Part shown: positions 16,907-32,654 of the stretch, piece after piece | How positions within the stretch are numbered: the first letter of the stretch is position 1 | Layout of the letters: every line of letters starts with the position of its first letter | Source: an uncultured Clostridia bacterium | GTDB taxonomy: Bacteria; Bacillota; Clostridia; Oscillospirales; Acutalibacteraceae | NCBI GenBank assembly: GCA_944376265.1 | Contig: CALWCD010000010.1 | Span: 1 to 45,440, forward strand | Reading direction: 5' to 3' | DNA length: 45,440 nt | Position numbers and translations under genes: made by a program | Notes under the pieces: generated by a model | The model's input: the letters and a program-made list of their open reading frames with translations, nothing else | Told to the model about the DNA's origin: nothing | Databases searched by the model: none

Positions 16907-17125
16907 GTGGCAGTCGTGTTCACACAGCTTTTAGATCTTCTGTCCCATGTTGTCTGCCTGTTTTTGCACGTTACCGGAGGCGGCACCTTTCCTCGGGCGC
17001 TCTCCGCCGCCCAGGAAAAGAAATGCCTGGAGGAGATGGCACAGGGCAGCCAGGCGGCCCGCCAGAAGCTCATCGAGCACAACCTGCGGCTGGTGGCGCA
17101 CATCATTAAAAACGGCTGCCCGTAA
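16907..17125 (+). CDS. sigK: sigK 5' segment: pro-sequence and region 1.2/2.1 of sigma-K (interrupted)
   Basis: The frame encodes a hydrophobic pro-sequence (FTQLLDLLSHVVCLFLHVTGG), then TFPRALSAAQEKKCLEEMAQ and KLIEHNLRLVAHIIK, the signature of pro-SigmaK. The homology stops at codon 17108-17110. The next codons (NGCP, stop) come from the inserted element. The start is GTG at 16907 or, better spaced from AAGAAGGG, GTG at 16916. In sporulating mother cells pro-SigmaK is cleaved after SpoIVB signalling and directs late coat genes. The frame continues at 28358 once the 11,250-bp element is removed. In the arrangement seen here it cannot encode a sigma factor. Confidence 0.92.
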   Translation: MAVVFTQLLDLLSHVVCLFLHVTGGGTFPRALSAAQEKKCLEEMAQGSQAARQKLIEHNLRLVAHIIKNGCP

Positions 17126-17129
17126 GGGA
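17094..17129 (+). other. Left attachment site (attL) of the sigK element
   Basis: The sigK arm TGGCG (17094-17098) lies 9 bp before AA at 17108-17109 inside an A5 run. The element arm TGCCCGTAAGGGA (17117-17129) lies 7 bp after it. The arms are inverted partners of those at the right end, each centred on the same AA dinucleotide. Confidence 0.8.
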
Positions 17130-18734
17130 CGCTTTGTTCCTGTCCCATACGTATTCCCAGGAAGCTCCTGTGTTCAGAGAGATCTCCAGCCGAACTGCCT
17201 CCGAGGTGCTTTCCTTTTTTACCACAATCCGGTTTAGAAGTTTCCCCACAAGTCCATGATTTTCCCGGCCCTGGAAGGAGAGCTCCTCCTCCAGGGCTTT
17301 TTTGATTTCCGCCAGATTTTGGGAGGCGAGCCCCTTCCTGGGTTCCTCCTGGAGGGCAGCCTCTTGGGAAAGAAGTGTTTGCAGCTGGGCGTTGCACTGG
17401 TCATTCCACTGTTTGAACTCTTCCAGGGAGATGGTGCCGTTCAGGTTCATTTCCAGCAGGCGCTCCTTCTTCTGCTGGAGGAGGGCTTTTTCCTGTGTCA
17501 GGCAGTTCCTCCGTGTTTGGCTGTCCTCCTTTTTGCCGGCGGCCTGGAGGACCTGGAGCACGGTATTCACAATGGCTTCCCTGTCCCACAGGACCTGGCT
17601 GAGCACAGAGGCCATCAGCCTATCCAGTTCCCAGGTGAACAGCCTGGGGGAGCTGCACCCGGTTTTTCCCTTTTGGTGGTAGACCTTGCACTCCCACACT
17701 TCGGTGCCGCCCTGACGGGTTTGCCGCAGCCGCCGGTGGTAGCTGGTGTTGTGGGCCTCACAGAGGATCTTCCCGCTGTACGAGTAGCGGCTGTGGTAAT
17801 CCGCGGCCTGCTGGTGCGCCTTGATCTGTTTGCTGCGCAGCCGGTAGAGGGCGTTGGCCCGGTCCCACAGCTCCTCGGACACAATGGCAGGGACGGCAGG
17901 GTCGGGGTAGAGCACCCAGTCCTCTTCGTCCAGGAAGACCCGGCGCTTGGTGCGGTAGTCCACAGTCTGGCTTTTCCCGGCGCAGTACCAGCCTTTGTAC
18001 TTGGGGTTGCAGAGCATGTGCCGGATGGTCACCTCGTTGAAAGCGTTTCCCCGGCGGCTGGTACAGCCCTCCTTGTAAAGCTGTTGGGAGATCTTCCGAA
18101 TGCCCAGCCCCTGGTTGGCGTACAGGTCGAAGATCCGCCGGACAATGGCGGCTTCCCGCTGGTTGACGGTGAGCACACAGTCCTTCTTGTCGTAGCCCCA
18201 CAGCGTGTCGTTTCCCAGCACATGGCCGTTTTTTATGGCCTGGTGGAAGCCGAACTTCAGCCGCTCCGAAAGCTTTCGCACCTCATCCTGGGCCACGCCC
18301 GCCATAATGGTCAGCCGGAACTCGCTGTCCGGGTCCATGGTGTTGATGTTGTCGTTTTGGAACAGCACTCCCACGTCGTGCTCCAGCAGCTCCTGGGTGT
18401 ATTGTATGCTGTCCAGGGTGGAGCGGGAAAACCGGGAGATCTCCTTGGTGATGATGAAATCGAACCGTCCGGCTTTGGCATCCCGGATCATCCGGAGAAA
18501 GCTGTCCCGATTTTTGGTGCTGGTGCCGCTGATGCCCTCATCGATGTACCCGGGAATGTAAGTCCAGCTGGGTTTGGACTGGATCAGCTCCGTATAGTAC
18601 TGTACCTGGTTTTCCAGGCTGTTCAGCTGCTCGGTTTTGTCGGTGGACACCCGGGCGTAGAACGTCACCCGCAGGGGCAGGTCGAAAATGGACCTGCCTT
18701 TTCCCATCTCACTGCGCACTTTCAGAATGTTCAT
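17106..18734 (-). CDS. Large serine recombinase of the sigK element (SpoIVCA-like)
   Basis: 542 residues. The N-terminal resolvase domain has the catalytic Ser30 in YARVSTD, then YIDEGISGTSTKNRDSF and SRFSRSTLDSIQYT. The recombinase domain follows (GYDKKDCVLTVN...IRKISQQLYKEG), then a zinc-type domain (C..H, WECKVYHQKGKTGCSS) and a C-terminal coiled coil (KALLQQKKERLLEMN). This is the domain order of phage-type serine integrases and of B. subtilis SpoIVCA. It points leftward, and its TAA (17108-17106) overlaps the attL crossover. Joining the element ends would also supply TAA (CCCTTAAAAACGG), so the protein ends identically in the circle. Predicted job: excise the element from sigK. Confidence 0.93.
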   Translation of the reverse strand: MNILKVRSEMGKGRSIFDLPLRVTFYARVSTDKTEQLNSLENQVQYYTELIQSKPSWTYIPGYIDEGISGTSTKNRDSFLRMIRDAKAGRFDFIITKEISRFSRSTLDSIQYTQELLEHDVGVLFQNDNINTMDPDSEFRLTIMAGVAQDEVRKLSERLKFGFHQAIKNGHVLGNDTLWGYDKKDCVLTVNQREAAIVRRIFDLYANQGLGIRKISQQLYKEGCTSRRGNAFNEVTIRHMLCNPKYKGWYCAGKSQTVDYRTKRRVFLDEEDWVLYPDPAVPAIVSEELWDRANALYRLRSKQIKAHQQAADYHSRYSYSGKILCEAHNTSYHRRLRQTRQGGTEVWECKVYHQKGKTGCSSPRLFTWELDRLMASVLSQVLWDREAIVNTVLQVLQAAGKKEDSQTRRNCLTQEKALLQQKKERLLEMNLNGTISLEEFKQWNDQCNAQLQTLLSQEAALQEEPRKGLASQNLAEIKKALEEELSFQGRENHGLVGKLLNRIVVKKESTSEAVRLEISLNTGASWEYVWDRNKASLTGSRF

Positions 18735-18903
18735 CCGGATCCGCCTCCTTGTCTCCCGGCAGGGGATACCCCACCAGCCGGGGAAAATCGGTCATGGAAT
18801 CAACCAGATCCAAAGCGGCGGAACAGGCGTCTTTGGATAGAAGCTCCCGGCGCGTCAGAGCTTTTATAAGCTCGCGGACGATCTCCCGGTCTATATGGTC
18901 CAT
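18709..18903 (-). CDS. Small protein coupled to the recombinase
   Basis: 64 residues from ATG at 18903 (AGAGGTG lies 6 nt upstream; an ATG two codons earlier is possible). The sequence is acidic and mostly helical (DREIVRELIKALTRRELLSKDACSAALDLVDSM). It overlaps the recombinase start by 26 bp, so the two are probably translated together. I do not recognise a family. Partners of serine integrases that decide excision versus integration (directionality factors) are often small and encoded next door, so this is a candidate, by position only. Confidence 0.55.
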   Translation of the reverse strand: MDHIDREIVRELIKALTRRELLSKDACSAALDLVDSMTDFPRLVGYPLPGDKEADPDEHSESAQ

Positions 18904-19311
18904 TGCCATCACCTCTACTAACCCATATGAGAGATCAGAGGTGTACAGCACTGGAAGTGGAGACGCCTGATTCGGTACGTAGGACCCAGCCCCTTCCCAG
19001 AGAAGGGGGAAACAAACCCGAACAGCATCTTCTGAGTGACAAAAGAAAGACGAAACCCATGCTGGTCTGCTCGGTCATCTCTTTCACCTCTGTCGGCGGT
19101 TATCCAGGAAGTTCTTCCGGCCGCTTGGCGGGTGTTCAAAATGGTCTGAAAAAAGGAAAAACAATCCGGAGAGAAGGCGGGGGAAAGCAGTCGTTTCGCC
19201 GGAAACAGCAGATGTTTCCGGGACTTTCCCTGGGGGGAGAAAGCCATGGAACCGCCACGGATCTTCCCGGAGAAGCAGTGCCAAACAGCAAGAATAGAAT
19301 GCGAAAATACA
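18904..19311. other. Divergent intergenic region of the sigK element
   Basis: About 400 bp between the leftward recombinase operon and the rightward kinase gene. No gene with coding character was found. It should contain the promoter of the recombinase operon. I looked for a sigma-E type promoter on the minus strand and found no convincing match. Confidence 0.4.
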
Positions 19312-19339
19312 TTGCAATTTACCACAAAATTGGTATAAT
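19312..19339 (+). promoter_or_regulatory. Promoter of the kinase/phosphatase operon
   Basis: TTGCAA (19312-19317), a 16-bp spacer and a perfect TATAAT (19334-19339), about 67 bp upstream of the kinase start, in an AT-rich patch. Confidence 0.65.
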
Positions 19340-19405
19340 AATACAAAATACTGCTTTTTCTTTCCCATTGTTTGCATGTGGAAGGACCCGAAGGGGGACT
19401 TGGGA

Positions 19406-22399
19406 ATGTCCAGAACCTGTTCAAATTGCTTTCAGCCTCTGCCGGAGGGAGTGGAGGTTTGTCCTGCCTGCGGATATGACCAGCGAAAGGATCAAGGAAA
19501 CTATCCGCTGGCGCTGCCGGTGGGGACAGTGCTCAACGGCCGGTATATTTTGGGAAGGGTGCTGGGCCAGGGCGGCTTCGGCATCACCTATGTGGCGAAA
19601 GACCACCGCACAGGCGGCCTTGTGGCGGTGAAAGAGTACTTTCCCGACACAATGGCCACCCGCTCTCAGGGTCCCGCTGTCACAGCCTACACAGGCCAGC
19701 GGGAGGAGAACTTCTCCTACGGCAAGGAGTGCTTTCTCAACGAGGCGAAAACCTTGGCGGAATTTATTGGAAATCCCAACATCGTGCGGGTATACAGCTA
19801 CTTTGAGGAGAACAACACCGCCTATTTTGTCATGGAATACGTCCAGGGCATCAGCCTCCAGGAGTACCTGAAGGAACGGGGCAGAATCCCCTGGCAGGAG
19901 GCCAAGAGGATCCTGTTTCCGGTGATGGAAGCCTTGGAGGCGGTCCATGCCAAGGGGATCGTCCATCGGGACGTGACCCCGGACAACATCTATCTCACCC
20001 GGGACGGCCAGGTGAAGCTGTTGGATTTCGGCGCCGCCCGGTACAGCCTGGGGGATAAGAGCCGCAGCCTGGACGTGGTGCTCAAACACGGGTTCGCCCC
20101 CAAGGAGCAGTACTCCCGCCACGGCCGGCAGGGCCCCTTCACCGATGTGTATGCTTTGGGGGCCACCTTCTACTTTGCCATTACCGGGCGGGTGCCCCCG
20201 GACTCCATTGACCGCCAGGACGAGGACGACCTGATCCTGCCCAGCAGCCTGGGAGTGAAAATCCCCGTGGGGGTGGAGGACGCTCTGTGCAAAGCGCTGG
20301 CGGTCTCCGCTCAGGACCGTTTCCAGACCATGGGAGAGTTTCAGCTTGCCCTGAGCAGGGGGGAGCTGGATGCCGGGGAGGTTCCTCCCCCGCAGCCTCC
20401 TTCCCAGGGGACGGGAGGGGAAACCGACTTCGGAACAGGGGGAGACGGCACAGTTCCGCCCCAGCCCCCGGAGAGAGGGGGAGGCGGAGCCGTGTCTTCT
20501 GGGGAGCTCACCCCGGAAAAGAAAAAGAGGCTTCAAATTGTCATAGGAGCGGTGGCGGCACTCTTCGTGGTGGTCACCCTGTCGGTTCTGGCCGCCAGCA
20601 TGTTGGGGAAGGCGCCGTCCGCTGTCCCCGATGACTTCCAGACCTCTGAAAGCGGAGTGAGCTCCTCCGTGGAGGAGGGCGAGAACGCTTCCCAGCAGGA
20701 GGATCAGGTGGTTTCCCTGGAAGACGGGGAGACATTCCGGCTGCGGACCAGGCTCTATTCCTTTGATGACCAGGGAGTCCTGGAAGAGGTCACTCTGTAC
20801 GAGTTTGACGGCTGGGGCAACGAAGTGGGCTATGCCGACTATTTGCCCGACGGGTCCCTGGAATCCTATTCCAGGAAGGTCTACGACAGCAGCGGACGGA
20901 AGATTGAGGAAACCCATTTTGAGGCGGACGGCACCATGACCAGCCGTTACGAGGACCTTTACGAGGGAAACACCCTCCAGGAATACTCCTGGAGAGAGGG
21001 GGAGGAACGGGTTCTGGATGGGGAAAGCACCTTTGACGATGACGGCAACCAGCTGACCCTGACCAGCTACAATGAGGACGGTTCGGTGGATTATACCCGG
21101 GAGTATGAATATGACAGCCAAGGGAACTTGGTTTACAAGAACTTTGGGTCGTACCAGGAGGGTTCTCTGGAGAGCCTGATGGAGTACCAGTACTCCTATG
21201 ACAGCCAGGGAAACCAGGTGGAGGAACAGACTTTCCGCAACGGAGAGCTGTACCAGGTGACCCAGTGGGAGTTTGACGGAAACGGGAACATGCTCTTCGA
21301 ATACGAATACGACAAAACCATGGCCCTCCAGTATGCGTCGAAATTCCAGTACGACAGCCAGGGAAACCAGATCTTTGACGGGTGGTACGATAAGGAGGGA
21401 GACCTGAGGATCGTATACGAAAACGAGTACGACCAGTACGGGGAATGCGTGCTGGCCTATTCCGACACTTCCCCGGAGGACCCTGAAGAGGATGACGCCA
21501 GCCTGTTCACCTACGAAAACCAGTACGACGAAGAGGGCAACCTGGTGCGGGAAATCGCCTATTGCGACGGAGTGCTGTGGTGTGTCCGGGAGTATGAGAC
21601 CCGAACGGTGCCCGCCCAGCCCGGCGGCGACCCGGACCTGGAGCTTGCTCCGCCGGAGGGGGAAATCACAGTGGACGCCCCTCAGGCTCCCACCCAGGTG
21701 AGCGTGGACAAGAGCCAGTTCCCCAAAACGAAGGATGCGTTTGTGTCCCCGGCAGCGGGCAGCTCCACGCCTGAACCAGAGGTTTCCCAAGCCGCCCAGT
21801 CCGGGGAGTTCACCGGCTCCCAGCACGGCATTACCGGCGCCAAGTTCGCCATTCAGGAAATCCAAGGCCAGGAGGGCTTCGCAGGGCAGCACAGCGGTTC
21901 TCCCTGCGGCGGCCTGGTGGAGATGGAAGACGGCCCCTGGTTCCTGGCTCTGTACGAGCGCAGCACCGGGGAAGAAGAGTACGCGGTCTACTACTCCCTC
22001 TACGACCTGCGGGGCAACGGCCTGGTGGTCCCTGCCTGCGAAGAGCTGTTTGTGCCCGTGGGGGGAAACAATGGAAAGGTGGGCATTTATCAGGACAAGG
22101 AGGGCGTTTCCTACCTGATGGTGGAGAGACGCCAGGCGGACGGGCAGACAGTGTACACCTCCTATTCCTACACGCCCATCACAGCGGACGGCCTCACCTT
22201 GGAGGGAAGCTGTTTCGGCTCCTCGGAAGTGAATTACGACAAGGGAACGGGGGTTTACATTGTGGGGGACACCAAAACGGACGAATCTGGTTTCCAGGAT
22301 TTCCAGAACCGGTTCACCCCCGTGTGCTCCATGGACCTGTTCGGCAGCTATGTGGGCAACGTGATCACCTTTGAGGACTTTCTTCAAAATTATGGATGA
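19406..22399 (+). CDS. Membrane Ser/Thr protein kinase with YD-like repeat sensor domain
   Basis: 997 residues. N-terminal zinc ribbon (Cys5, Cys8, Cys19, Cys22). Kinase domain about 46-318: glycine loop GQGGFG, Lys76 in VAVKEY, HRDVTPDN (Asp189), LDFGAAR (Asp207) and GFAPKEQY. A Pro/Gly linker precedes one membrane helix (about 378-399). The outer part (about 440-730) has repeats of the form YDSQGNxV/FDGNGNM, like the YD repeats of WapA/RHS proteins. A final beta-rich domain (about 810-997) contains GGADSPCGGL-type loops without a recognised family. All catalytic residues are present. The start at 19406 has AAGGGGG upstream. It heads an operon with FHA-type and PP2C genes, suggesting a kinase/phosphatase switch sensing something outside the membrane. 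Confidence 0.85.
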   Translation: MSRTCSNCFQPLPEGVEVCPACGYDQRKDQGNYPLALPVGTVLNGRYILGRVLGQGGFGITYVAKDHRTGGLVAVKEYFPDTMATRSQGPAVTAYTGQREENFSYGKECFLNEAKTLAEFIGNPNIVRVYSYFEENNTAYFVMEYVQGISLQEYLKERGRIPWQEAKRILFPVMEALEAVHAKGIVHRDVTPDNIYLTRDGQVKLLDFGAARYSLGDKSRSLDVVLKHGFAPKEQYSRHGRQGPFTDVYALGATFYFAITGRVPPDSIDRQDEDDLILPSSLGVKIPVGVEDALCKALAVSAQDRFQTMGEFQLALSRGELDAGEVPPPQPPSQGTGGETDFGTGGDGTVPPQPPERGGGGAVSSGELTPEKKKRLQIVIGAVAALFVVVTLSVLAASMLGKAPSAVPDDFQTSESGVSSSVEEGENASQQEDQVVSLEDGETFRLRTRLYSFDDQGVLEEVTLYEFDGWGNEVGYADYLPDGSLESYSRKVYDSSGRKIEETHFEADGTMTSRYEDLYEGNTLQEYSWREGEERVLDGESTFDDDGNQLTLTSYNEDGSVDYTREYEYDSQGNLVYKNFGSYQEGSLESLMEYQYSYDSQGNQVEEQTFRNGELYQVTQWEFDGNGNMLFEYEYDKTMALQYASKFQYDSQGNQIFDGWYDKEGDLRIVYENEYDQYGECVLAYSDTSPEDPEEDDASLFTYENQYDEEGNLVREIAYCDGVLWCVREYETRTVPAQPGGDPDLELAPPEGEITVDAPQAPTQVSVDKSQFPKTKDAFVSPAAGSSTPEPEVSQAAQSGEFTGSQHGITGAKFAIQEIQGQEGFAGQHSGSPCGGLVEMEDGPWFLALYERSTGEEEYAVYYSLYDLRGNGLVVPACEELFVPVGGNNGKVGIYQDKEGVSYLMVERRQADGQTVYTSYSYTPITADGLTLEGSCFGSSEVNYDKGTGVYIVGDTKTDESGFQDFQNRFTPVCSMDLFGSYVGNVITFEDFLQNYG

Positions 22400-22414
22400 G
22401 AGGGGAGAGGGACC

Positions 22415-22639
22415 GTGAAATATACAGAGTGCGCCAACGGCCATGTGTACGATTCCGACCAGTACGCCGCGTGCCCCTACTGCAACCATGCGGGAATGGA
22501 GATCCAGTTCGGGCCGGGGGAGGGCGGAAAGACCGTGGCCCCCGGCGCCTGCCGGAAACGGGAGGAACTGTCCAACAGGACAGTGGCTGTTTTCCAGCAG
22601 AAATACGGCCTGGACCCGGTAGTGGGGTGGCCTGTATGA
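22415..22639 (+). pseudogene. Truncated FHA-domain adaptor gene (N-terminal zinc ribbon only)
   Basis: 74 codons from a GTG with GAGGGGAGAGGG upstream. MKYTECANGHVYDSDQYAACPYC is the usual zinc-ribbon start of FHA proteins in such kinase operons, and KYGLDPVVGW is the stretch that normally leads into the FHA domain. The frame ends two codons later, where PP2C sequence begins. A deletion apparently removed the FHA domain and the start of the next gene. The TGA overlaps the ATG of the PP2C remnant. Confidence 0.65.
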
Positions 22640-23073
22640 TCTACCAGGAACGGCTGTGGTTTGCCAGCGTGGGGGACAGCTGCCTGTACCTGCTGCGGGA
22701 CCATCAGCTGGGCAGGCTGAACCGTCCTCACAATATGCGCCACCTGCTCTACCTCCAGGAGCTTCAGGCGGGGAGGGCCGACCCCGTTCCCGGGCGGGAA
22801 CACCCGGAGTCCGACGCTTTGACCTCGTTTCTGGGCATGGAGGACATGGAGCAGGTGGACCTGTTCCGAAGGCCTCTGTCCCTGGAGCAGGGAGACGTGC
22901 TGCTGCTCTGTTCCGATGGCGTTAGCGGCACCCTTCCGGAGGAAGTGCTTGTGGCCTGCCTGGAGCAGGATACCCCTCGGTTTATGTGCAAGGCCATGGA
23001 GCAGGAGATTGTGAAACGGGCCCTGTCCCACCAGGACAACTACACCGCGGTGGTTATTCGCTGTGTGAAATAG
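22636..23073 (+). pseudogene. N-terminally truncated PP2C phosphatase
   Basis: 145 codons from ATG 22636. It holds the later PP2C motifs: FASVGDSCLYLL, LLLCSDGVSGTLP and HQDNYTAVVIR. The first third of the domain, with the metal-binding Asp of the DGxGG motif, is missing. Without it the product should be inactive as a phosphatase. It could still be translated by ATGA coupling to the FHA remnant. It lies directly at the presumed deletion joint. Confidence 0.7.
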
Positions 23074-23089
23074 GGAGGATGAAACCGAA

Positions 23090-23191
23090 ATGAAAAAGAA
23101 TGTGCCGGCTTTTTTGCCCATGACCATTCTCGCCGGCGCCGGCAAGACCCGGGTCTGTCTGGGAAATCTGCTGAGTGCGGGGGTGAAGTGA
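23090..23191 (+). CDS. 33-codon ORF, possible gene relic
   Basis: MKKNVPAFLPMTILAGAGKT... follows a good GGGAGG site and ends against the next PP2C gene. Its position, between two PP2C genes of a kinase/FHA operon, is where a von Willebrand A (TerY-like) gene is often found, and MKKNVPAFLPMTILA could be the start of one. The metal-binding DxSxS motif is absent. I cannot name it with confidence. Confidence 0.3.
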   Translation: MKKNVPAFLPMTILAGAGKTRVCLGNLLSAGVK

Positions 23192-23196
23192 GCCCT

Positions 23197-23925
23197 ATGG
23201 CCATGTATGACAGCTTTTTCTTTACCAGTCCCGGCGGAAGGGACCACAACGAGGACGCCTTGGGAGACAAGGAGTGGGAGGCGGGCCGGCTGTTTTTGCT
23301 GGCGGACGGCCTGGGAGGCCACCAGCGGGGGGAAGTGGCTTCCGCCTGCGTGGTAAACGCCCTGGAAAACGCCCCGGAGCCTTCCGGGGACCAGGAGCTG
23401 CCCCAGTGGCTGTTCCAGCAGGTCCAGGCGGCAAACCAGAAGCTGCTGGCGCTGCGGGAGTCCACCGGATGGTCTATGAAGAGCACCCTGGTGGCATTGT
23501 TTCTGGGGGAGGAGGAAGCCTGCTGGGCCCATGTGGGGGATTCCCGGCTGTACTTTTTCCATCACGACCGCCTGGAGGCCGTCACCAGCGACCACTCTGT
23601 GGCGTTTGCCAAGTACAAAAACGGGGAGATCACCCGAGGCCAGATCGGCAGGGACGAGGACCAGTCCAGCCTGCTGCGGGCCTTGGGAAACCCGGAGCGC
23701 AGCCATCCGGACCTGGGACAAAGCTGGGAACCGCCCCAGGAGGGGGACGGCTTCCTCTTGTGCTCCGACGGGGTGTGGGAGTACCTGTACGACCAGGAAG
23801 TGCTGGCGGATTTTCTGAAGACCGAAACCGCCCGGGAGTGGGGAGAACTGCTGCTTCTCCGGGTGATGGAGCGGGCCTGCCCCGGAAACGACAACCTTTC
23901 TTTGATCACGGTCCGGGTGGTGTAG
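23197..23925 (+). CDS. PP2C family Ser/Thr phosphatase, complete
   Basis: 242 residues with the full motif series: GRDHNEDAL, LADGLGGHQRGEVAS, STLVALFLGEE, AHVGDSRLYFF, LLCSDGVWEYL and GNDNLSLITVRV. The conserved aspartates for the two-metal centre are present. It is predicted to reverse phosphorylation by the kinase of the same operon. The start at 23197 follows GGGGGTGA; a GTG at 23188 overlapping the upstream stop is possible. About 100 bp with no clear gene separate its stop from a large hairpin. Confidence 0.88.
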   Translation: MAMYDSFFFTSPGGRDHNEDALGDKEWEAGRLFLLADGLGGHQRGEVASACVVNALENAPEPSGDQELPQWLFQQVQAANQKLLALRESTGWSMKSTLVALFLGEEEACWAHVGDSRLYFFHHDRLEAVTSDHSVAFAKYKNGEITRGQIGRDEDQSSLLRALGNPERSHPDLGQSWEPPQEGDGFLLCSDGVWEYLYDQEVLADFLKTETAREWGELLLLRVMERACPGNDNLSLITVRVV

Positions 23926-24043
23926 CGCTCCGGCGGAGATGTTGGTGAAGGGCGTTTCCATGCACCTGGCGAACCGTCCCCGCAGCGGGGCAGAGACCGC
24001 CATCGCCTGTGCCAACCTCCGCTTTTAAGGCATGGCAAGCAAA

Positions 24044-24098
24044 ACAGCGCTCCCTTTGTCAGGGCGAATTACTCGCTGGCTGACACAGGGAGCGCTGT
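24044..24098. terminator. Bidirectional terminator between convergent genes
   Basis: A long inverted repeat, ACAGCGCTCCCTTTGTCAG with CTGACACAGGGAGCGCTGT, lies between the end of the PP2C gene (plus) and the end of the sugar isomerase-like gene (minus). Confidence 0.7.
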
Positions 24099-24131
24099 CT
24101 GTTCTGGTCCTGTTTTGGCAGGGCCTTGCTC

Positions 24132-24989
24132 TCAGGTGAGGGTCCCGGGCCTTCCCTGTCCGGAGGAGAGGTATTGGGGAAAGTGTTCCCGAAGGAAATT
24201 CATGGCGGTGTTGTATTCCTGGAAGGTGTTCAGGTGTTCCAGAAGCAGGGGAGTGTCCTCCGGCAGCCGAGACAGGTGGTCCAGATAGCACCCCAGTTTG
24301 CCTCCGCCGGTGCCCAAAAGAGTCTCCTGGATCATCACCGTGGTGCCCTCCCGCAGGACGATGTCCTTTAGGTGGCAGCTGGCAATGGACTTGCTCAGCA
24401 GGGAAAAAGCCTGGTCCATCAGTTCTTCCTGGTGGGTGTAGGTGTAGGGGTCCCGGACGAAGTTCCACACGTCCATGTGGACCCCGCAGCCCTTCCGGTC
24501 CACGTCCCGGAGGAATTGCTGGTACTGCTGGGGACTCCAGGGGAGCATCCACTGCATGGGTTCCAGGGCGTAGACAGTGTGCCGGGGTTTCACCGTGTCG
24601 CACAGGCGCTGCACGAATTCCACGTTCTTCTGGTAAAGGGCCGGGTCAAAGTTTTCCCGGTAGCAGTAAAACCACTTGTCTCCCGCCGCTCCCGACACGT
24701 TGACGCAGCAGTCGGCCTGAACGTACTCCGCCAGGCGGAACTGCTCCAGGCACCGTTCCCGGGCGGCTTTGGCCCGGGCAAGGTCGGGAAAGTGGGGGGA
24801 GTCCCACACGCCCACCTCGGCAATGCGCAGGTCGTGTTCCTTGGCGGCTTTCACGTAGCCGTCGATAAGGGAGACCGGCGCCCGGTAGTCCACCGGGAAC
24901 GAGGTGGCCCGAAAGCCGTGCTCCACCAGAATTTCCGCCCATTGGTCCGGCGAGTCGTGGGGCGGGGCAAAGTTGATTCCTATTCTCAT
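24132..24989 (-). CDS. Sugar phosphate isomerase/epimerase-like TIM-barrel protein
   Basis: 285 residues, start at 24989 with AAGGAGGAG 8 nt upstream. It begins MRIGINFAPPHDSPDQW. Likely metal ligands lie in VYALEPMQW, GVHMDVWNF, ASCHLKDI and LLLEHLNTF, as in the xylose isomerase-like superfamily. The cytoplasmic enzyme probably isomerises or epimerises a sugar or sugar acid; the substrate is unknown. It is divergent from the GH43 gene, which suggests joint use in glycan breakdown. Confidence 0.8.
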   Translation of the reverse strand: MRIGINFAPPHDSPDQWAEILVEHGFRATSFPVDYRAPVSLIDGYVKAAKEHDLRIAEVGVWDSPHFPDLARAKAARERCLEQFRLAEYVQADCCVNVSGAAGDKWFYCYRENFDPALYQKNVEFVQRLCDTVKPRHTVYALEPMQWMLPWSPQQYQQFLRDVDRKGCGVHMDVWNFVRDPYTYTHQEELMDQAFSLLSKSIASCHLKDIVLREGTTVMIQETLLGTGGGKLGCYLDHLSRLPEDTPLLLEHLNTFQEYNTAMNFLREHFPQYLSSGQGRPGTLT

Positions 24990-25132
24990 GTGCGTGCTCC
25001 TCCTTGAAAAAACTGGGCGAGAGGGGAACCGCCTGGAGAGCAGGCGGATGGCCGCGCCCTCTTCAGCGGGCCCCATCACCCGGGAAGCGTGTCTTCCCTC
25101 TATACAATACCACAATCTTCCGGATTTTTCCC

Positions 25133-25161
25133 TTTACTTTTTGAAAATAGCGTAGTACACT
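25133..25161 (+). promoter_or_regulatory. Promoter of the GH43 gene
   Basis: TTTACT (25133-25138), a 17-bp spacer and TACACT (25156-25161), 32 bp before the start codon. Confidence 0.5.
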
Positions 25162-25193
25162 AACAAAAAATCTTGTATTAGGAGAGAGTTGTC

Positions 25194-26723
25194 ATGAAGA
25201 TCAATCCCATCACCCGCTTGGACTATCCCGACCCGGACGTGATCCGCGTAGGGGAATGGTACTACCTGGTCACCACCACCATGTATTTCTTTCCCGGCGG
25301 GGAGATTCTCCGCTCTCGGGACCTGGTCCACTGGGAGCATCTGAGTTACATGTTCGACTCCCTGGACTCCACCCCCGGCCAGCGGCTGGAGGGCAGCGAA
25401 AACATCTACGGCAAGGGCATGTGGGCGGCATCCATCCGGTTCCACCAGGGCAGATTTTACGTGTGTTTCTGCGCCAACGACACGGAACAGTCCTACCTGT
25501 TCACCGCCGAAGACCCTGCCGGCCCCTGGCAGCGGCTGCCCATTGAGGGCTTTTACCACGACGCTTCCCTGCTCTTTGACCAGGACGGCCGGGTATACCT
25601 TGCCTACGGCCACCGGGATATTTACATTGTGGAGCTGAAAGAAGACCTGAGCGGGCCCAAGCCCGGGGGCTTGAACCGGATGGTGGTCTCCGACCAGGGA
25701 AATCCCCGGCTGGGATACGAGGGGTCCCACCTGTACCGCATCAACGGCAAGTACTACCTGTTTCTCATTCATTCCCGCCGGGACCGGTGGCGCAGGACCG
25801 AAGCCTGCTTCGTGGCCGATTCCCTGGAGGGTGAGTTCACCGGCGGCGACGTGCTGGACGACGACATGGGCTACCTGGATCAGGGAGTGGCCCAGGGCGG
25901 CATTGTGGACACTCCCGACGGCCGCTGGTACGCCATCCTTTTCCAGGACCGGGGCGCCGTGGGGCGCATTCCCGTGCTGGTGCCTGTGCGCTGGGAGAAC
26001 GGCCTTCCCGTTTTCGGGGAGAAGATGCAGATTCCGGAACGCTTCCCCCTGCCGGAGACCTCCCTTACCGGCCCCATGGTGGAAAGCGACGGCTTCACCA
26101 CGTCCGGCGGCCCGCAAACTCATGGCACCTTTGGGCTGAAGAGCTGCTGGCAGTTCAACCACCAGCCGGACCTTCCCCTCACCCACCTTGACCGGGAGCA
26201 GGGGACCTGGTCGGTGACCACCGGCAAGCTCTGCGCCGACGTGACCCAGGCCCGGAACACCCTGACCCAGCGGATGCTGTTCCCTCGGTGCGGGGCGGAG
26301 ATCACCCTTTCCGGCGAGTCTCTGAAAGTGGGAGACGTGGCGGGGCTGTGCGTGCTCCAGAGCTGCTACGGGCTCATCGGCCTCACCCGTACGGAGGAAG
26401 GCTACCGGCTGACTGTCCGCACCCGGGAAAACGACCAGACCACCGGGGTCACCCCGGAACAGGAGTGGGAGAGCATCCCCTGGGAGAGCGCTCAGGTGCA
26501 GCTGCGGGTGGAGGCAGAGTTTGACCAGATGGCAGACCAGGCTGTGTTCTACTGCCGTGAGCCTGGTGAGGAGACTTGGACCCGGCTGGGCCCGGCCCAC
26601 AAGCTGTACTTCAAGCTGGAGCACTTCACCGGCTGCCGATTTGGCTTGTTTGCTTACGCCACCCGGGAGACCGGGGGCACGGCGGTCTTCTCCAACTTTG
26701 TCTACGACACCCGGGAGGATTGA
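25194..26723 (+). CDS. GH43 family glycosidase (beta-xylosidase / arabinofuranosidase type)
   Basis: 509 residues, no signal peptide. An N-terminal five-bladed propeller (about 1-300) carries the three GH43 acidic residues: Asp13 in YPDPDV (base), Asp123 in YHDASLLFD and Glu176 in YEGSHLYRING (acid). A C-terminal beta-sandwich (about 310-505), common in GH43 subfamilies that trim xylan or arabinoxylan, follows. AGGAGAG precedes the start. It acts inside the cell on imported oligosaccharides. It belongs to the sugar-related cargo of the sigK element together with the TIM-barrel gene. Confidence 0.87.
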   Translation: MKINPITRLDYPDPDVIRVGEWYYLVTTTMYFFPGGEILRSRDLVHWEHLSYMFDSLDSTPGQRLEGSENIYGKGMWAASIRFHQGRFYVCFCANDTEQSYLFTAEDPAGPWQRLPIEGFYHDASLLFDQDGRVYLAYGHRDIYIVELKEDLSGPKPGGLNRMVVSDQGNPRLGYEGSHLYRINGKYYLFLIHSRRDRWRRTEACFVADSLEGEFTGGDVLDDDMGYLDQGVAQGGIVDTPDGRWYAILFQDRGAVGRIPVLVPVRWENGLPVFGEKMQIPERFPLPETSLTGPMVESDGFTTSGGPQTHGTFGLKSCWQFNHQPDLPLTHLDREQGTWSVTTGKLCADVTQARNTLTQRMLFPRCGAEITLSGESLKVGDVAGLCVLQSCYGLIGLTRTEEGYRLTVRTRENDQTTGVTPEQEWESIPWESAQVQLRVEAEFDQMADQAVFYCREPGEETWTRLGPAHKLYFKLEHFTGCRFGLFAYATRETGGTAVFSNFVYDTRED

Positions 26724-26769
26724 CTTCCCCTGGGGGAAAGGCATTTTGGGAATTTCCTTTGGACATCAC

Positions 26770-26800
26770 TTGACTTCAAGTAAACTTTAGGTGATAAGAT
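26770..26800 (+). promoter_or_regulatory. MerR-type promoter with 19-bp spacer
   Basis: TTGACT (26770-26775) and TAAGAT (26795-26800) are separated by 19 bp that contain an imperfect dyad (CTTCAAGTAAACTTTAGG). The long spacer with a dyad is typical of promoters twisted open by MerR-family activators. It reads into the aldo/keto reductase relic and then the alcohol dehydrogenase. No MerR gene is present nearby. Confidence 0.6.
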
Positions 26801-26811
26801 AGACAAGCAGG

Positions 26812-26956
26812 ATGCAGCCGGGCCCCAGAACGTGCCGGTAGTCATCCAAGGCTGCATGCGGATGCCCGCTCTGTCGGTGGAAGAGGCGGCAGAGGTGATC
26901 CGCACCGCCTGCGACCACTGCATCAGCTATCTGGCGGCCGGGAAGTACTTGCCGTA
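26812..26956 (+). pseudogene. Relic of an aldo/keto reductase gene (N-terminal part)
   Basis: One frame reads NVPVVIQGCMRMPALSVEEA, then AEVIRTACDHCISYL and a stop at 26956. This matches the N-terminus of clostridial aldo/keto reductases (VPVVIQGCMR...LIRTALDHGINFFDHADIYG), cut just before the catalytic Asp/Tyr part. It lies right behind the MerR-type promoter, the usual place for such genes. Only about 45 codons remain. I infer a deletion that moved the promoter close to the alcohol dehydrogenase. Confidence 0.6.
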
Positions 26957-27012
26957 ACGGATTTGGAAGCAAGCGGACTACCGTGAAATTTTATCAAAGG
27001 AGAGAAATCACC

Positions 27013-28191
27013 ATGGATAATTTTACGTTCTACGCGCCCACGTATTTTTCCTTCGGCAAGGGAGCGGAAGCTCAGGCCGGCGGCCTTGTGAAGCGGTTCG
27101 GCGGCACCAAGGTGCTGCTCCATTACGGCGGCGGAAGCGTGATCCGCTCCGGACTGCTGGGAAGAGTGAAGGAGTCTTTGGAAAAGGAGTCCATCCCTTA
27201 CCTGGAGCTGGGAGGCGTCAAGCCCAACCCCAGAAGCGGTCTGGTCTATGAGGGCATCGACCTGTGCAGAAAGGAGCACATCGACTTTGTCCTGGCAGTG
27301 GGCGGCGGAAGCACCATCGACTCCGCCAAGGCCATTGCCGCCGGCACAGTGTACGACGGGGACTTCTGGGACTTCTATGAGGGCAAGCCTGTCACCGAAG
27401 CGCTGCCCATCGGCACCATCCTGACCATCGCCGCCGCCGGTTCCGAGGGCTCTCCAGACTCCGTCATCACCAAGGAGGAGGGCATGATCAAGCGGGGCGC
27501 CAGCGGCGAGGCGTACCGGCCCAAGTTCTCCATCCTGAACCCCGAGCTTACCCAGACCCTGTCCCCCTACCAGACCGCCTGCGGCGTCACGGACATTCTG
27601 GCCCACCTGTACGAGCGGTACCTGACCAACACCCAGAACGTGGAGACCACGGACCGGATGATCGAGGCCCTTATGCTGGCCATGATCCACGAGGCTCCCA
27701 AGGTGATAGAGAACCCCAACGACTACGAGGCCCGGGCCAATATCATGTGGGCCGGGATGATGGCTCACAACAATTCCTGCGGCGTGGGAAGAAGCCAGGA
27801 CTGGACCAGCCACAACATCGAGCACGAGCTGTCCGCTCTGTACGACTGTGCCCACGGCGCCGGTTTGGCCGTGACCATGCCTGCCGTGTTCCAGTACACC
27901 ATGAACCACGACGTCACCCGGTTCGTGAAGGCGGCCGTCAGAGTCTGGGGCTGCCAGATGGACTTTGAGCATCCGGAAGCGACCGCCAAGGCGGGCATCG
28001 AAGCCCTGCGCAGTTTCCTTATCTCCATTGGCATGCCCAAGAACTTTGAAGAGCTGGGTGCCAAGGAAGAAGATATCGAAAAGCTGGCCCACACCTGCTG
28101 CTATGGCAGCGAGGGCGCCAATGGCACCATCAGCGGCTTCACCACCCTGACCCAGAAGGACGTGGAGGCCATCTACCGCCTGATGCTGTAA
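27013..28191 (+). CDS. Iron-containing alcohol dehydrogenase (BDH/YqhD-like)
   Basis: 392 residues with AAAGGAG 9 nt upstream of ATG 27013. The nucleotide-binding part has VGGGSTIDSAKAIAAG. The metal site is intact: Asp194 and His198 in DILAHLYE, His267 in TSHNIEHE and His281 in CAHGAGLAVTMP, the same positions as in YqhD. Family members reduce aldehydes to alcohols with NAD(P)H. The physiological substrate is unknown; with the MerR-type promoter upstream, aldehyde detoxification is plausible. A terminator at 28223 follows. It is the last gene of the sigK element. Confidence 0.9.
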   Translation: MDNFTFYAPTYFSFGKGAEAQAGGLVKRFGGTKVLLHYGGGSVIRSGLLGRVKESLEKESIPYLELGGVKPNPRSGLVYEGIDLCRKEHIDFVLAVGGGSTIDSAKAIAAGTVYDGDFWDFYEGKPVTEALPIGTILTIAAAGSEGSPDSVITKEEGMIKRGASGEAYRPKFSILNPELTQTLSPYQTACGVTDILAHLYERYLTNTQNVETTDRMIEALMLAMIHEAPKVIENPNDYEARANIMWAGMMAHNNSCGVGRSQDWTSHNIEHELSALYDCAHGAGLAVTMPAVFQYTMNHDVTRFVKAAVRVWGCQMDFEHPEATAKAGIEALRSFLISIGMPKNFEELGAKEEDIEKLAHTCCYGSEGANGTISGFTTLTQKDVEAIYRLML

Positions 28192-28222
28192 TCCTCCAGC
28201 AGGTTTTCCGTTTTCACAGACA

Positions 28223-28266
28223 AAAGATCCCTTTCGGCTGAGAGTTTGCCGAGAGGGATCTTTTTG
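28223..28266 (+). terminator. Terminator of the alcohol dehydrogenase gene
   Basis: AAAGATCCCTTTCGGC pairs (one bulge) with GCCGAGAGGGATCTTTTT. It would also keep cargo transcripts out of the sigK 3' segment. Confidence 0.85.
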
Positions 28267-28337
28267 CGTGAGCACCCGGATGTGTTGCCGGAGAGGGAGG
28301 AGACACCACCGGCTTTGGGAGTGGCTGAGGAAAATGT

Positions 28338-28373
28338 TCCCTTATGGGCATCCCTTAAAAAAGTATTACGCCA
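28338..28373 (+). other. Right attachment site (attR) of the sigK element
   Basis: The element arm TCCCTTATGGGCA (28338-28350) lies 7 bp before AA (28358-28359). The sigK arm CGCCA (28369-28373) lies 9 bp after it. TCCCTTATGGGCA is the inverse of TGCCCGTAAGGGA at the left end with one mismatch. Confidence 0.8.
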
Positions 28374-28810
28374 GCCAGAACGACCAGGAGGATTTGATCT
28401 CCATCGGAACCATCGGGCTGATCAAAGCGGTGGACACCTTCGACCCACAGAAGGGCATCCGGCTGTCCAGCTACGCCTCCCGGTGCATTGAGAACGAGAT
28501 CCTCATGTTCTTCCGCAGCGGGAAGAAAACTGCCCAGGACGTGTCCCTCAACGAGCCCATCGATACCGACAAGGAAGGCAACGCCTTAACCATCCTGGAC
28601 ACCATGGCGGTGGACGACACCATTGTGGACAGCATCGATGTAAAGCTGAAGAGCGAGAAGCTGTATGGGTACCTGCAGACCGCTCTCACCCGGCGGGAAC
28701 GAGAGGTGGTGTGCCGCCGGTATGGCCTCTGCGGATTCCGGTCCCAGCCCCAGCGGGTGGTGGCAAAGCGGCTGGGCATTTCGCGCAGCTATGTATCGCG
28801 CCTAGCCTAA
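28358..28810 (+). CDS. sigK: sigK middle segment: regions 2-4 of sigma-K, truncated at its 3' end
   Basis: From 28358 the frame reads KKYYASQNDQEDLISIGTIG, then GLIKAVDTFD, YASRCIENEILMFFRSGKK, DVSLNEPIDTDKEGN and LTRREREVVCRRYG, the conserved order of SigmaK regions 2, 3 and 4. The last helix-turn-helix reads RVVAKRLGISRSYVSR and then LA-stop. Normal SigmaK continues IEKRALMK... for about 25-30 residues. Joined to the 5' segment this gives about 212-215 residues, short of the usual length. The break at 28801 coincides with the start of the conjugative element. Without its recognition-helix end the product is probably inactive. Confidence 0.88.
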   Translation, partial: KKYYASQNDQEDLISIGTIGLIKAVDTFDPQKGIRLSSYASRCIENEILMFFRSGKKTAQDVSLNEPIDTDKEGNALTILDTMAVDDTIVDSIDVKLKSEKLYGYLQTALTRREREVVCRRYGLCGFRSQPQRVVAKRLGISRSYVSRLA

Positions 28811-28816
28811 CGTAAG
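28793..28816 (+). repeat. Junction repeat, copy 1 (sigK/ICE boundary)
   Basis: 24 bp spanning the second sigK break (GTATCGCG...TAACGTAAG). It matches 28881-28904 at 18 of 24 positions. Confidence 0.55.
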
Positions 28817-28880
28817 CGGGTGCCTCAAAGCCGCATAAATACTGGCTTTTTCGACAGTGGCTTCCAGGCCGTTTTTGGGG

Positions 28881-28904
28881 GGATCGCGGCGCGCTTAATG
28901 TAAG
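28881..28904 (+). repeat. Junction repeat, copy 2
   Basis: GGATCGCG...TTAATGTAAG, same orientation as 28793-28816 and 88 bp inward. Candidate integrase-binding or former junction sequence. Confidence 0.5.
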
Positions 28905-29073
28905 TGCCGGTAAATTTCACAAAAACAAAAGTGAAGGTCCGTCAATTCACACAAAGCCCTGTTTTTTTGCCTTCCGGCTGTTTTGGACCCAAATCCGCGG
29001 TTCCAAGGTGATCCCAGACCGAAAATCTCCTGGGGAAGGGGGGCCATTTCTGTGAAAGGGAAGCATCGCACCT

Positions 29074-29103
29074 TTGCCTTTTCCCCCTCCTGTGGAGTAA
29101 GAT
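29074..29103 (+). promoter_or_regulatory. Promoter at the ICE left end
   Basis: TTGCCT (29074-29079), an 18-bp spacer and TAAGAT (29098-29103), 23 bp before the small ORF at 29127. Confidence 0.45.
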
Positions 29104-29126
29104 GGGGACCAAGGAGGTGCTCACCC

Positions 29127-29297
29127 ATGAAACAACCCAAGATCCGTCTTACCCTGAACCACACCGAGACCAACCTGCTGCTGCTCAGCCTGAACCAGCT
29201 GCGGAACCTTTGGCTGAAAAAGGACAGCGACACCTTTCTGGTGGACGAGTTGTTCCTGAAGATCGTGAAAAAGGCGGGGAGGAGGCTCCCCTTATAG
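29127..29297 (+). CDS. Small ICE protein of unknown function
   Basis: 56 residues, MKQPKIRLTLNHTETNLLLL..., with AAGGAGG 7-8 nt upstream. It is Leu-rich and basic, with amphipathic helices and no clear membrane span. It is the first gene of the element and is isolated from parA by a terminator, so it is expressed as a separate short transcript. I do not recognise the family; short first genes in such elements are often regulators, but nothing here proves that. Confidence 0.55.
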   Translation: MKQPKIRLTLNHTETNLLLLSLNQLRNLWLKKDSDTFLVDELFLKIVKKAGRRLPL

Positions 29298-29302
29298 CTC
29301 TG

Positions 29303-29331
29303 CGAAAAGACACCCGCCCGGGTGTCTTTTT
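29303..29331 (+). terminator. Terminator after the first small ICE gene
   Basis: AAAAGACACCC pairs with GGGTGTCTTTTTTT around a 4-nt loop. Confidence 0.85.
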
Positions 29332-29394
29332 TTGCGCCCAGCAGGGATGTCCCGGGAAAGGAGGTCCTGGACGGAACAGAGAAGGAGGCAGAAC

Positions 29395-30225
29395 ATGAAC
29401 CAAACCAACTGCCGGATTATTGCCCTGGCAAACCAAAAGGGGGGCACCGGCAAAACCACCACCACGGTCAACCTGGGGGTGGGGCTGGCGCGCCGGGGGA
29501 AGAGAGTCCTGCTGGTGGACGCCGACCCCCAGGGAGACCTGACCACCTGCCTGGGCTGGCGGAACCAGGACAGCCTGCATCCCACCCTGGCCTCCCTCAT
29601 GGAGGCGGCCATCCGGGAGGAACCGGCGAACCTGGAAAAGGCGGTGCTCCACCACCGGGAGGGGGTGGACCTGCTGCCCTCCAACATTGAGCTTTCCGTC
29701 ATGGAGATGGCCCTGGTCACCGCCATGAGCCGGGAGTTCACCCTGAAGGAGGTGCTGTCCCCGGCCCGGCCCCGGTACGACTACATCCTCATCGACTGTA
29801 TGCCCTCCCTGGGTATGGTCACCATCAACGCCCTTGCCGCTGCCGACAGTGTGATCATCCCGGTGCAGGCCCACTACCTGCCCGCCAAGGGTATGACCCA
29901 GCTGCTGCGCACCGTTTCCCGGGTGCGGCGCCAGATCAACCCTGGCCTGCGGGTGGACGGCGTGCTGCTCACCCTGGTGGACAGCCGCACCAACCTTGCC
30001 CGGCAGACGGCAGAGACGCTGCGGGAAAATTACGGCAGCGTCCTGCACATCTACCAAAGCCGGATTCCCCTGGCGGTGAAAGCCGCGGAGGTGAGCGGGG
30101 CGGGGGAAAGCATTTACGCGTACGACCCGGGGGGCAAAGCAGCGGCGGCCTACGAGTCCTTTACCAAGGAGGTGCTGGATGGCGAAAAGCAGCGAGCGAA
30201 GCTTCAGCCTGCCCTCGCTCGATGA
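29395..30225 (+). CDS. parA: ParA family partition ATPase
   Basis: 276 residues. A deviant Walker A NQKGGTGKTTTT near residue 15-24, VDADPQGDLTTCLGW and YDYILIDCMPSLGM identify a ParA/Soj ATPase. The start at 29395 follows GAAGGAGG. Together with ParB it probably stabilises the excised circular form of the element before transfer. The parB start lies 47 bp inside the end of parA, so the pair is coupled. Confidence 0.93.
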   Translation: MNQTNCRIIALANQKGGTGKTTTTVNLGVGLARRGKRVLLVDADPQGDLTTCLGWRNQDSLHPTLASLMEAAIREEPANLEKAVLHHREGVDLLPSNIELSVMEMALVTAMSREFTLKEVLSPARPRYDYILIDCMPSLGMVTINALAAADSVIIPVQAHYLPAKGMTQLLRTVSRVRRQINPGLRVDGVLLTLVDSRTNLARQTAETLRENYGSVLHIYQSRIPLAVKAAEVSGAGESIYAYDPGGKAAAAYESFTKEVLDGEKQRAKLQPALAR

Positions 30226-31150
30226 CCTGTTCACCACCCAGGCGGAGCGGGAAGAGGCCAGGCTGGAAAAGGTGGTGCTGCTGTCCCCGGAGGAGATCAG
30301 CGAGTTTCCCTGCCACCCCTTCCAGGTGCGTATGGACGCCGCCATGGAGGAGATGGTCCGAAGCGTCCGGGAGAACGGGGTGCTGGTGCCGGCCCTGGTG
30401 CGTCCCAAGGAGGGAGGCGGCTACGAGATGGTGTCCGGTCACCGGCGCAGGCAGGCCGCCCAGCTGGCGGGTCTTTCCCAGCTGCCCTGCATTGTCCGGG
30501 AGCTCACCCAGGACCAGGCCGTTGTCATCATGGTGGACAGCAACCTGCAGCGGGAGCAGATTCTCCCCAGCGAAAAGGCATTTGCCTACAAGATGAAGCT
30601 GGACGCCATGAAACGGCAGGGGCAAAGGACGGATTTAACTTCGACCCCAGTGGGGCCGAAGTTATTATTCCCACGTTCAAACATCGAGTTAGCGGTAGAG
30701 AGTCCCGATGGAAAAACACAAATCCAACGCTACATCCGCCTGACCCACCTGGTTCCTCCGCTCCTTGCCCTGGTGGACAACGCGGTTCTGAAAGAGCCGG
30801 GGAAACCTCAAATGGCGCTGCGCCCGGCGGTGGAGCTTTCCTACCTGCGAAAAGAGGAACAGCTGGATTTGGCCCAGCTTATCCAAGAGCTGGAATCCAC
30901 CCCTTCCCACGCCCAGTCGCTGAAATTGCGGAAGCTTTCCGAGGAACAGGAGCCAGAGGGGCGGCTGGCCCGGGACGCCATCCTGGCCATTCTGGAGGAG
31001 GAAAAGCCCAACCAGGTGGAGCAGGTGAAGATTCCCAGAGACCGCATTTCCAAGTTCTTCCCGGCGGGGACGCCTGCCAGAAAAATGGAAGAGACCATTG
31101 TGAAAGCCCTGGAGCTGTACCGCAGGCGCCAGCGGGACAGGGAACGGTGA
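30179..31150 (+). CDS. parB: ParB/RepB family partition protein
   Basis: 323 residues. The ParB nuclease-like domain includes PCHPFQVRMD, VSGHRRRQAAQLAG and LQREQILPSEKAFAYKMK. This is followed by the RTDLTSTPVG stretch and the QIQRYIRLTHLVPPLL helix-turn-helix, with a helical C-terminal half. AAGGAGG lies 4-5 nt upstream, inside parA. Codons 152-184 (about 30,630-30,730) change abruptly from GC-ending to rare A/T-ending codons (TTA, TCA, AGT, GTA, ACA) and contain a near-perfect 29-bp palindrome at 30636-30664. ParB presumably binds a centromere-like site; this palindrome is one candidate. Confidence 0.9.
   Translation: MAKSSERSFSLPSLDDLFTTQAEREEARLEKVVLLSPEEISEFPCHPFQVRMDAAMEEMVRSVRENGVLVPALVRPKEGGGYEMVSGHRRRQAAQLAGLSQLPCIVRELTQDQAVVIMVDSNLQREQILPSEKAFAYKMKLDAMKRQGQRTDLTSTPVGPKLLFPRSNIELAVESPDGKTQIQRYIRLTHLVPPLLALVDNAVLKEPGKPQMALRPAVELSYLRKEEQLDLAQLIQELESTPSHAQSLKLRKLSEEQEPEGRLARDAILAILEEEKPNQVEQVKIPRDRISKFFPAGTPARKMEETIVKALELYRRRQRDRER
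30636..30664. promoter_or_regulatory. 29-bp palindrome inside parB (candidate parS or operator)
   Basis: TAACTTCG, CCCCA and the mirrored TGGGG, CGAAGTTA pair around a central G with a single mismatched pair. It lies in the codons for the family-conserved LTSTPVG stretch, so protein conservation may explain part of it. The rare codon use around it does not follow from that. Confidence 0.45.
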
Positions 31151-31160
31151 AGCTGTCCGC

Positions 31161-31215
31161 CAGGGGGAAGCCGCGCCTTCAGCCGGAGAATGAAGGAGGC
31201 GCCAGGTTCCCCCTC
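31161..31215 (+). other. Long imperfect hairpin after parB
   Basis: GGGGGAA (31163-31169) pairs with TTCCCCC (31207-31213), and GCGCCTTC (31173-31180) with GAAGGAGGCGC (31192-31202, one bulge). There is no T-run, so it is an RNA structure or protein-binding site rather than a plain terminator. The AT-rich stretch at 31245-31290 follows. Confidence 0.5.
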
Positions 31216-31324
31216 TCCACACCTCACCCCCTGTTTCAACTATCCCAAAAGAAGATATTATGAAGTATAGATATTCAAAAGAGTAAAAAACACACCATGA
31301 AACATCATTGCACAGTGAGAGAGG

Positions 31325-31350
31325 AAAGCCTGGAGAGATCCGGGCTTTTC
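31325..31350 (+). terminator. Weak terminator before the transfer operon
   Basis: AAAGCCTGG pairs with CCGGGCTTTT, then CTTGTTT. It lies about 50 bp before the next start codon and could act as an attenuator for the genes downstream. Confidence 0.45.
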
Positions 31351-31398
31351 TTGTTTGGGGCAGGTCCCTGCTCTGTGCAAGCCGAGAAAGGAGTGGGC

Positions 31399-32638: not shown

Positions 32639-32654
32639 ACAAGGAGGTTATCCC

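Follow-up and report, generated by a model that had tools for sequence, protein, structure and literature searches.

In the 45,440-nucleotide stretch of DNA analyzed here (the window), from an uncultured Clostridia bacterium, the sporulation gene sigK is broken at two places, and we put at about 70% the probability that the gene is reassembled in development with two attachment (att) sites in use, site A, occupied by a skin-type element, and site C, occupied by a conjugative element, both of which must leave. The window comprises all of contig C10 from a 2.37-Mb metagenome-assembled genome (MAG; G000) consisting of 116 contigs, with a completeness of 96% and a contamination of 1.24%. Because relatives are cut at the same fixed places, sigK is probably rejoined at each sporulation. 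The site-A element of the window is a new variant of the skin type, in a gene with three recombination sites (A, B and C) that are used singly or together. Coordinates of all features are collected in Table 1.

At site A, sigK is split at codon 68 by an element of 11,250 bp (17110-28359). The N-terminal part of the gene (16907-17109) corresponds to profile positions 3-68 of the SigK model NF004471 and the C-terminal part (28358-28810) to positions 65-216, and an AA dinucleotide is common to both ends (17108-17109 and 28358-28359). Joining at this AA gives VAHIIKKYYASQ, in frame, and the protein reads HIIKKYY. The original prediction, which had one sigK piece ending at 17109 and the next restarting at 28358, was right in both coordinates, and also in recognizing a skin-like element whose large serine recombinase (LSR) gene lies at the left end: the Resolvase and Recombinase domains of this protein scored above the Pfam cut-offs, and its Zn ribbon just below its own. 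An intact second sigK, named there as evidence against such a split, was not found when this 96% complete genome was searched with the SigK model; the best other match (contig C45, 247 bits for a cut-off of 299, 42% identical to the window sigK) is taken to be SigE. SpoIVA is encoded in the same genome. What the original prediction missed, having seen the site-A break, is the conjugative element in the 3' end of the gene.

Comparison of the loci by eye showed that, on the left of site-A elements, the first AAN codon differs in its third base (AAC, AAT, AAG, AAA) while two lysine codons are kept on the right; the exchange must therefore lie at the first AA of codon 68, about which the site-A arms, again by eye, mirror each other. 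The two terminal arms of the window element agree at 16 of 22 mirrored positions, a score reached by 4 of 200,000 random window pairs, and a short core repeat within the inverted arms is present at both ends; a plain inverted-repeat search of the 11,250-bp element was uninformative (505 pairs). Homologous junctions were found in many other genomes. The stop codon of the site-A LSR sits in sigK sequence at the crossover, and in the circular form the frame would extend from 542 to 603 aa, a lengthening on excision that might make the reaction one-way.

The site-A recombinase belongs to a clade tied to this site. Eighty LSR loci were taken from named genomes, and 87 were tested together with those of the genus and family (L109, on the same contig as L051, was dropped). 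At 77 of the 87, 32 times on the N side and 45 times on the C side, the LSR adjoins one half of sigK at site A; with four duplicates removed this becomes 73 of 83 distinct loci, mostly in Oscillospiraceae and with isolates included. The other ten comprise five that run off a contig end (L134, L154, L182, L186 and L187), one on a 3.2-kb contig (L172), one with its sigK half 4.7 kb away (L136), two 48% relatives (L183 and L184) and one at a joined attP (L113, see below). Around 25 LSR loci of the family at greater distance (34-45% identity), the flanking stretch of about 1.5 kb or less on each side contained no sigK piece. All full-length members of the clade have an open frame and the YARVST catalytic motif. 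On the LSR tree the adjoining side of sigK switches repeatedly (11 changes for the N label, seven of them forced by well-supported branches). In a viral collection five LSR loci were found, one 65% identical and beside a sigK piece (L220), one 83% identical and cut at a contig end (L221) and three at 37% or less. A home for the site-A LSR in phages or plasmids was considered and rejected, the best identities being 38% and 34%, respectively.

The window sigK is continuous at CIENEIL (site B) and breaks at HII/KKYY; site B of the relatives looks, from its sequence, like the skin site of Bacillus subtilis. Site B could be read in 52 of the 73 site-A loci, where it was continuous in 33 and scored as broken in 19 (17 clearly; L140 ends at the contig and L083 is uncertain). 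At site C, 35 loci were readable, with sigK continuous in 22, broken in 12 (among them L111, which is degraded) and represented by a paralogue in one (L123). Several genomes have two sigK breaks, and Anaeromassilibacillus sp. An200 (L157) is broken at A, B and C; among other cultured commensals, Flavonifractor sp. An82 and An100 are broken at A and C, and Intestinibacillus massiliensis at A.

The second sigK piece of the window ends at 28810 with SYVSRLA and a stop codon, at a point where uninterrupted relatives continue RIEKKALEKLRR; this is a second interruption and not the true end of sigK. The left end of the site-C element lies in the window, where it encodes ParA, ParB, ArdA, a Toprim protein, a MobA/VirD2 relaxase, a VirD4-type coupling protein, a VirB4-like ATPase and a CHAP protein, and the joint presence of relaxase, coupling protein and secretion ATPase marks it as conjugative. 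Its LSR and right end are presumably those on a separate contig, C54. The gene is in three pieces, because the tail stands on C54 directly behind this other LSR, which belongs to a different clade from the site-A LSR. A search with the C54 LSR in 398 genomes of the bacterial family, with up to three candidates scored per genome, gave 22 loci. Where the LSR was at least 49% identical to that of C54, 14 of 15 loci, the window's own included, adjoin the sigK tail (nine by script and five, L193, L194, L195, L199 and L203, by eye), L201 being the one that does not; at lower identity none of seven does. Eleven site-A loci including the window are clearly broken at site C too, most of them with closely similar element ends; in a twelfth, L111, the C half of sigK behind the site-A element (11764-12081) looks degraded, with a stop between SYV and H. 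Fragments resembling the site-C LSR were seen just downstream of an uninterrupted sigK in G010 (L060, 5649-8161) and may be what remains of an old element. The LSR Recombinase domain is matched nine times in the window genome (contigs C10, C25, C29, C34, C35 and C54), and the matches on C10 and C54 are tied to sigK.

A small open reading frame (ORF) overlaps the start of the site-A LSR gene. With the window copy as query and a threshold of E<=0.01, it was found ahead of 63 of the 80 distinct site-A LSR genes; a profile of the 63, a method that differs from the window-copy search, found none at this threshold in 56 control LSR loci (best 0.02). Its structure model is a two-helix hairpin (mean predicted local distance difference test score, pLDDT, 80; predicted template modelling score, pTM, 0.58), and Pfam returned marginal matches only, such as SHOCT and YqgQ-like. 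In 59 of the 63 loci the sequence CATA lies 24-37 bases ahead of the start codon of the small ORF, where shuffling expects 4.5 and neighbouring stretches give 3-11, and its distance to an upstream ATTTT or ATA resembles that of sigma-E promoters. By eye, a short ORF also seems to precede the site-C LSR.

Within the genus, the survey of related sigK loci for empty sites that had been proposed with the original prediction found the gene uninterrupted in 18 of 29 genomes, with tails present in all 18. It was broken at site A in four (G000, G005, G006 and G015) and at site B in six (G001 from the N part only), and no sigK was found in one (G023), which gives a broken gene in 10 of the 28 sigK-bearing genomes. 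In G005 the 3' end of sigK is abnormal as well. In a tree of sigK from 28 genus members, the states A, B and uninterrupted need at least six changes. For the family we took one genome per genus, 75 genomes at least 90% complete, at E<=1e-13, and counted by hand. Among the matches listed, sigK was uninterrupted in 56 genomes, broken in 11 and absent at this threshold in 8, that is, broken in 11 of 67 sigK-bearing genomes, with breaks at site A in G000, G106 and G110 (the G106 match starts at residue 62), at site B in G049, G058, G059, G066, G120 and G122 (the last from the N part alone) and at site C in G000, G053, G056 and G059.

In Flintibacter muris (L113, 11607-11650) both site-A arms are joined in the form predicted for attP, beside an LSR frame of 588 aa; this place is not at sigK, and ParA-like and other frames of mobile-element type lie nearby. 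In this organism sigK is uninterrupted at site A and broken at site C. In this single case excision and a not-yet-integrated element would look alike. Ten viral contigs match the near-palindromic att pattern, none of them with any of the five recombinases tested. The ratio of nonsynonymous to synonymous substitution rates (dN/dS, Nei-Gojobori) of the window sigK pieces against G015, G016 and G005 was 0.03-0.10; for the uninterrupted pair G016-G004 it was 0.04 in the C piece and not calculable in the N piece, and for the recombinases 0.17 and 0.30, all these ratios being rough because several dS values exceed 1. The values of the sigK pieces, similar to that of the intact pair, show purifying selection.

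Both junctions, the in-frame restoration, the open recombinase frames and the recurrence of the arrangement in other genomes can be read directly in the assemblies; excision and its timing, what the small ORF does and whether both elements have to leave we infer as follows. In the mother cell during sporulation, a sigma-E-type promoter would drive joint expression of the small ORF and the LSR gene. The product of the small ORF would direct the site-A LSR to attL x attR, releasing an 11.25-kb circle, and at site C (SYVSR) the conjugative element with the second LSR would also leave, restoring SYVSRIEKKALEKLRREF. Complete pro-sigma-K would be made only after both excisions, and the forespore would retain both elements. 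We lean, on balance, towards a wider proposal, in which recombination at three fixed sites would make sigK of gut Oscillospiraceae and relatives a hub. Dedicated recombinase clades would serve two or more of these sites, a genome could use one site, two or all three, and the last mother-cell sigma factor would be controlled by an AND gate of two or three independent excisions, into which conjugative elements could plug. One recombinase clade is tied to a single site in a single gene, and a sporulation gene houses a conjugative element. Cultured gut commensals with one, two or three breaks, beside unbroken relatives, make it possible to test why sigK is split, and in such genomes sigK may be overlooked by gene callers and by surveys of sporulation genes.

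Several points weigh against developmental reassembly. Excision itself is deduced from assembled sequence, a joined attP was found in none of the 398 family genomes, and C10 and C54 are separate MAG contigs whose continuity is presumed. Site-A elements are found in either orientation, the LSR adjoining the N half of sigK in some and the C half in others, which the non-palindromic AA core does not explain. At E<=0.01 there was no small-ORF match in 17 of the 80 upstream regions, including those of G006 and two 48% relatives. The CATA box of the window has no -35 match, the -35-like stretch of most loci also resembles a terminator, and no sigma-E-like promoter was found ahead of the window sigK. 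In G005, moreover, the site-C LSR is beside the sigK body and not beside the tail. The gene normally behind sigK stands, in this genome (L051, L052), just upstream of the sigK N part, an arrangement that suggests an inversion or other rearrangement.

Other explanations would account for part of these observations. That the site-A element alone is developmentally excised, with the site-C element as a passenger and SigK functional although truncated to end in SYVSR and a few residues encoded by the element, seems unlikely. Such a protein would lose only about 20 residues, and the element end gives an early stop of similar form in many loci, but the break falls inside the helix-turn-helix of region 4, according to the region 4 match, and in 14 of 15 loci the tail behind the LSR keeps its frame, for which there would be no need if it were discarded. 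We consider it quite improbable that the breaks are recent and irreversible and sigK a dying gene in non-sporulating strains. The intermixing of broken and intact copies on the genus tree, with its six or more changes, and the degraded, stop-containing C half of L111 would fit such decay; the dN/dS of 0.03-0.10 speaks against it, although not absolutely, since part of the divergence may predate insertion, as do the open recombinases, the exact junction frames and the presence of SpoIVA. An assembly artefact or mixed strains in the MAG could be suspected from its 116 contigs and from a second break that spans a contig end, but the same junctions in many separate assemblies, including ones labelled as strains (Intestinibacillus massiliensis, Oscillibacter sp. 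PC13, Flavonifractor sp. An82 and Anaeromassilibacillus sp. An200), make this extremely improbable.

The most serious competitor, to which we give somewhat less than even odds, holds that sigK is a parking place: the LSRs would have been favoured for targeting a site where insertion does no harm during growth, the host would gain nothing and excision would be driven by the parasite. It agrees with the lack of common cargo, with gains and losses within the genus and with the conjugative element at site C. The small ORF and CATA box kept across many lineages suggest instead a tuning to sporulation, though a parasite would profit likewise. This explanation and developmental reassembly differ in who benefits, not in mechanism.

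By the numbering of the protein, we take position 195 of sigK in Bacillus cereus biovar anthracis to be site A (HIV/KK), and site A is probably already known from island IV of that organism; together with an LSR clade found beside sigK in 73 distinct loci, this leaves little of the 'independent or highly diverged case' that the original prediction had seen. Skin-type element excision during sporulation is proven in B. subtilis, Clostridioides difficile and B. cereus biovar anthracis (PMC10745906, PMC5025042); the skin element is termed an exception in clostridia, and a loss of fitness or spore quality is reported for C. difficile cells with sigK made continuous (PMC5025042). Island IV is inserted at sigK position 195, and its authors demonstrated both excision and the circle; like the window element it has no phage genes and an LSR (545 aa) antisense to the 5' part of sigK, but it is 22 kb long, with restriction-modification cargo and one break (PMC10745906). 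The B. subtilis skin likewise lies in sigK, encodes an LSR and leaves the gene in the mother cell (PMC10745906, PMC5025042), but is 48 kb and prophage-like, with an AATGA (CIENEIL) site and one break; the window element has neither that insertion site nor, by its Pfam and NCBIfam matches, prophage-like gene content. The skin-Cd element of C. difficile has the LSR CD1231 and the directionality factor CD1234 (72 aa), under sigma-E control, and differs in its size (14.6 kb), in a site and orientation unlike those of B. subtilis and in a sigma-K without pro-sequence (PMC5025042). By analogy, the CD1231/CD1234 pair may serve as a model for the LSR and small ORF described here. The gin element of B. 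cereus ATCC 10987 is also non-phage and removed in sporulation by an LSR and a small factor, but it lies in another gene, gerE, with one break (PMC5595907). The Alicyclobacillus phage MMB025 is a mobile element in sigK with a SpoIVCA-type LSR and a short core, TCTC, but it is a 105-kb infectious phage (PMC13141910). In the portions of open PubMed Central text consulted, we found no description of sigK broken at more than one place within one genome, of a conjugative element in sigK or of such sigK elements for Oscillospiraceae.

Table 1 Features of the interrupted sigK locus (window coordinates unless a contig is given)
Feature	Position	Strand	Basis or remark
sigK piece 1: codons 1-67 plus two bases of codon 68	16907..17109	+	SigK model; hydrophobic start typical of pro-sigma-K (by eye)
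Site A, left copy of AA crossover dinucleotide	17108..17109	+	Junction comparison
Left terminal arm, site-A element	17110..17131	.	Mirrored-arm comparison
Site-A LSR, 542 aa	17106..18734	-	Domain matches; stop codon overlaps sigK sequence
Small ORF, 64 aa, overlaps recombinase start	18709..18903	-	Candidate directionality or accessory factor
CATA box (-10, sigma-E type) ahead of small ORF	18926..18929	-	Motif search; no matching -35 in window
Cargo: Ser/Thr protein kinase, 1007 aa	19376..22399	+	Domain match
Cargo: PP2C-type phosphatase, weak match	22396..23073	+	Domain match
Cargo: PP2C phosphatase	23188..23925	+	Domain match
Cargo: sugar isomerase/epimerase-like TIM barrel	24132..25115	-	Domain match
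Cargo: GH43 glycosidase	25194..26723	+	Domain match
Cargo: iron-containing alcohol dehydrogenase	26983..28191	+	Domain match
Right terminal arm, site-A element	28336..28357	.	Mirrored-arm comparison
sigK piece 2: codon 68 (AA copy at 28358-28359) to SYVS	28358..28798	+	SigK model, dN/dS, join
Site C, left junction: AGCTATGTATCGCGC	28787..28801	+	Sequence departs from sigK beyond junction
Left part of site-C integrative conjugative element	28802..45440	+	Runs to contig end; continuity with C54 presumed
Site-C LSR, 541 aa	Contig C54 (L076) 4371-5996		Directly ahead of sigK tail
sigK tail (piece 3), then gene behind sigK	Contig C54 (L076), from 6047		

No phage genes were found among the Pfam and NCBIfam matches of the window cargo. 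The original prediction had called this cargo unusual, which is true and says little: in the 19 site-A elements with both ends on one contig (3.0 to 11.2 kb), 71 cargo ORFs of at least 90 aa match 93 Pfam families, the commonest of which occurs in six ORFs. Cargo as the key to element function was dropped, since no Pfam family occurs in more than 6 of these 71 ORFs. The kinase, phosphatases, GH43 and dehydrogenase of the window are one load among many; what recurs across site-A elements is the LSR, the palindromic att arms, the small upstream ORF and the CATA box, while the cargo is variable.

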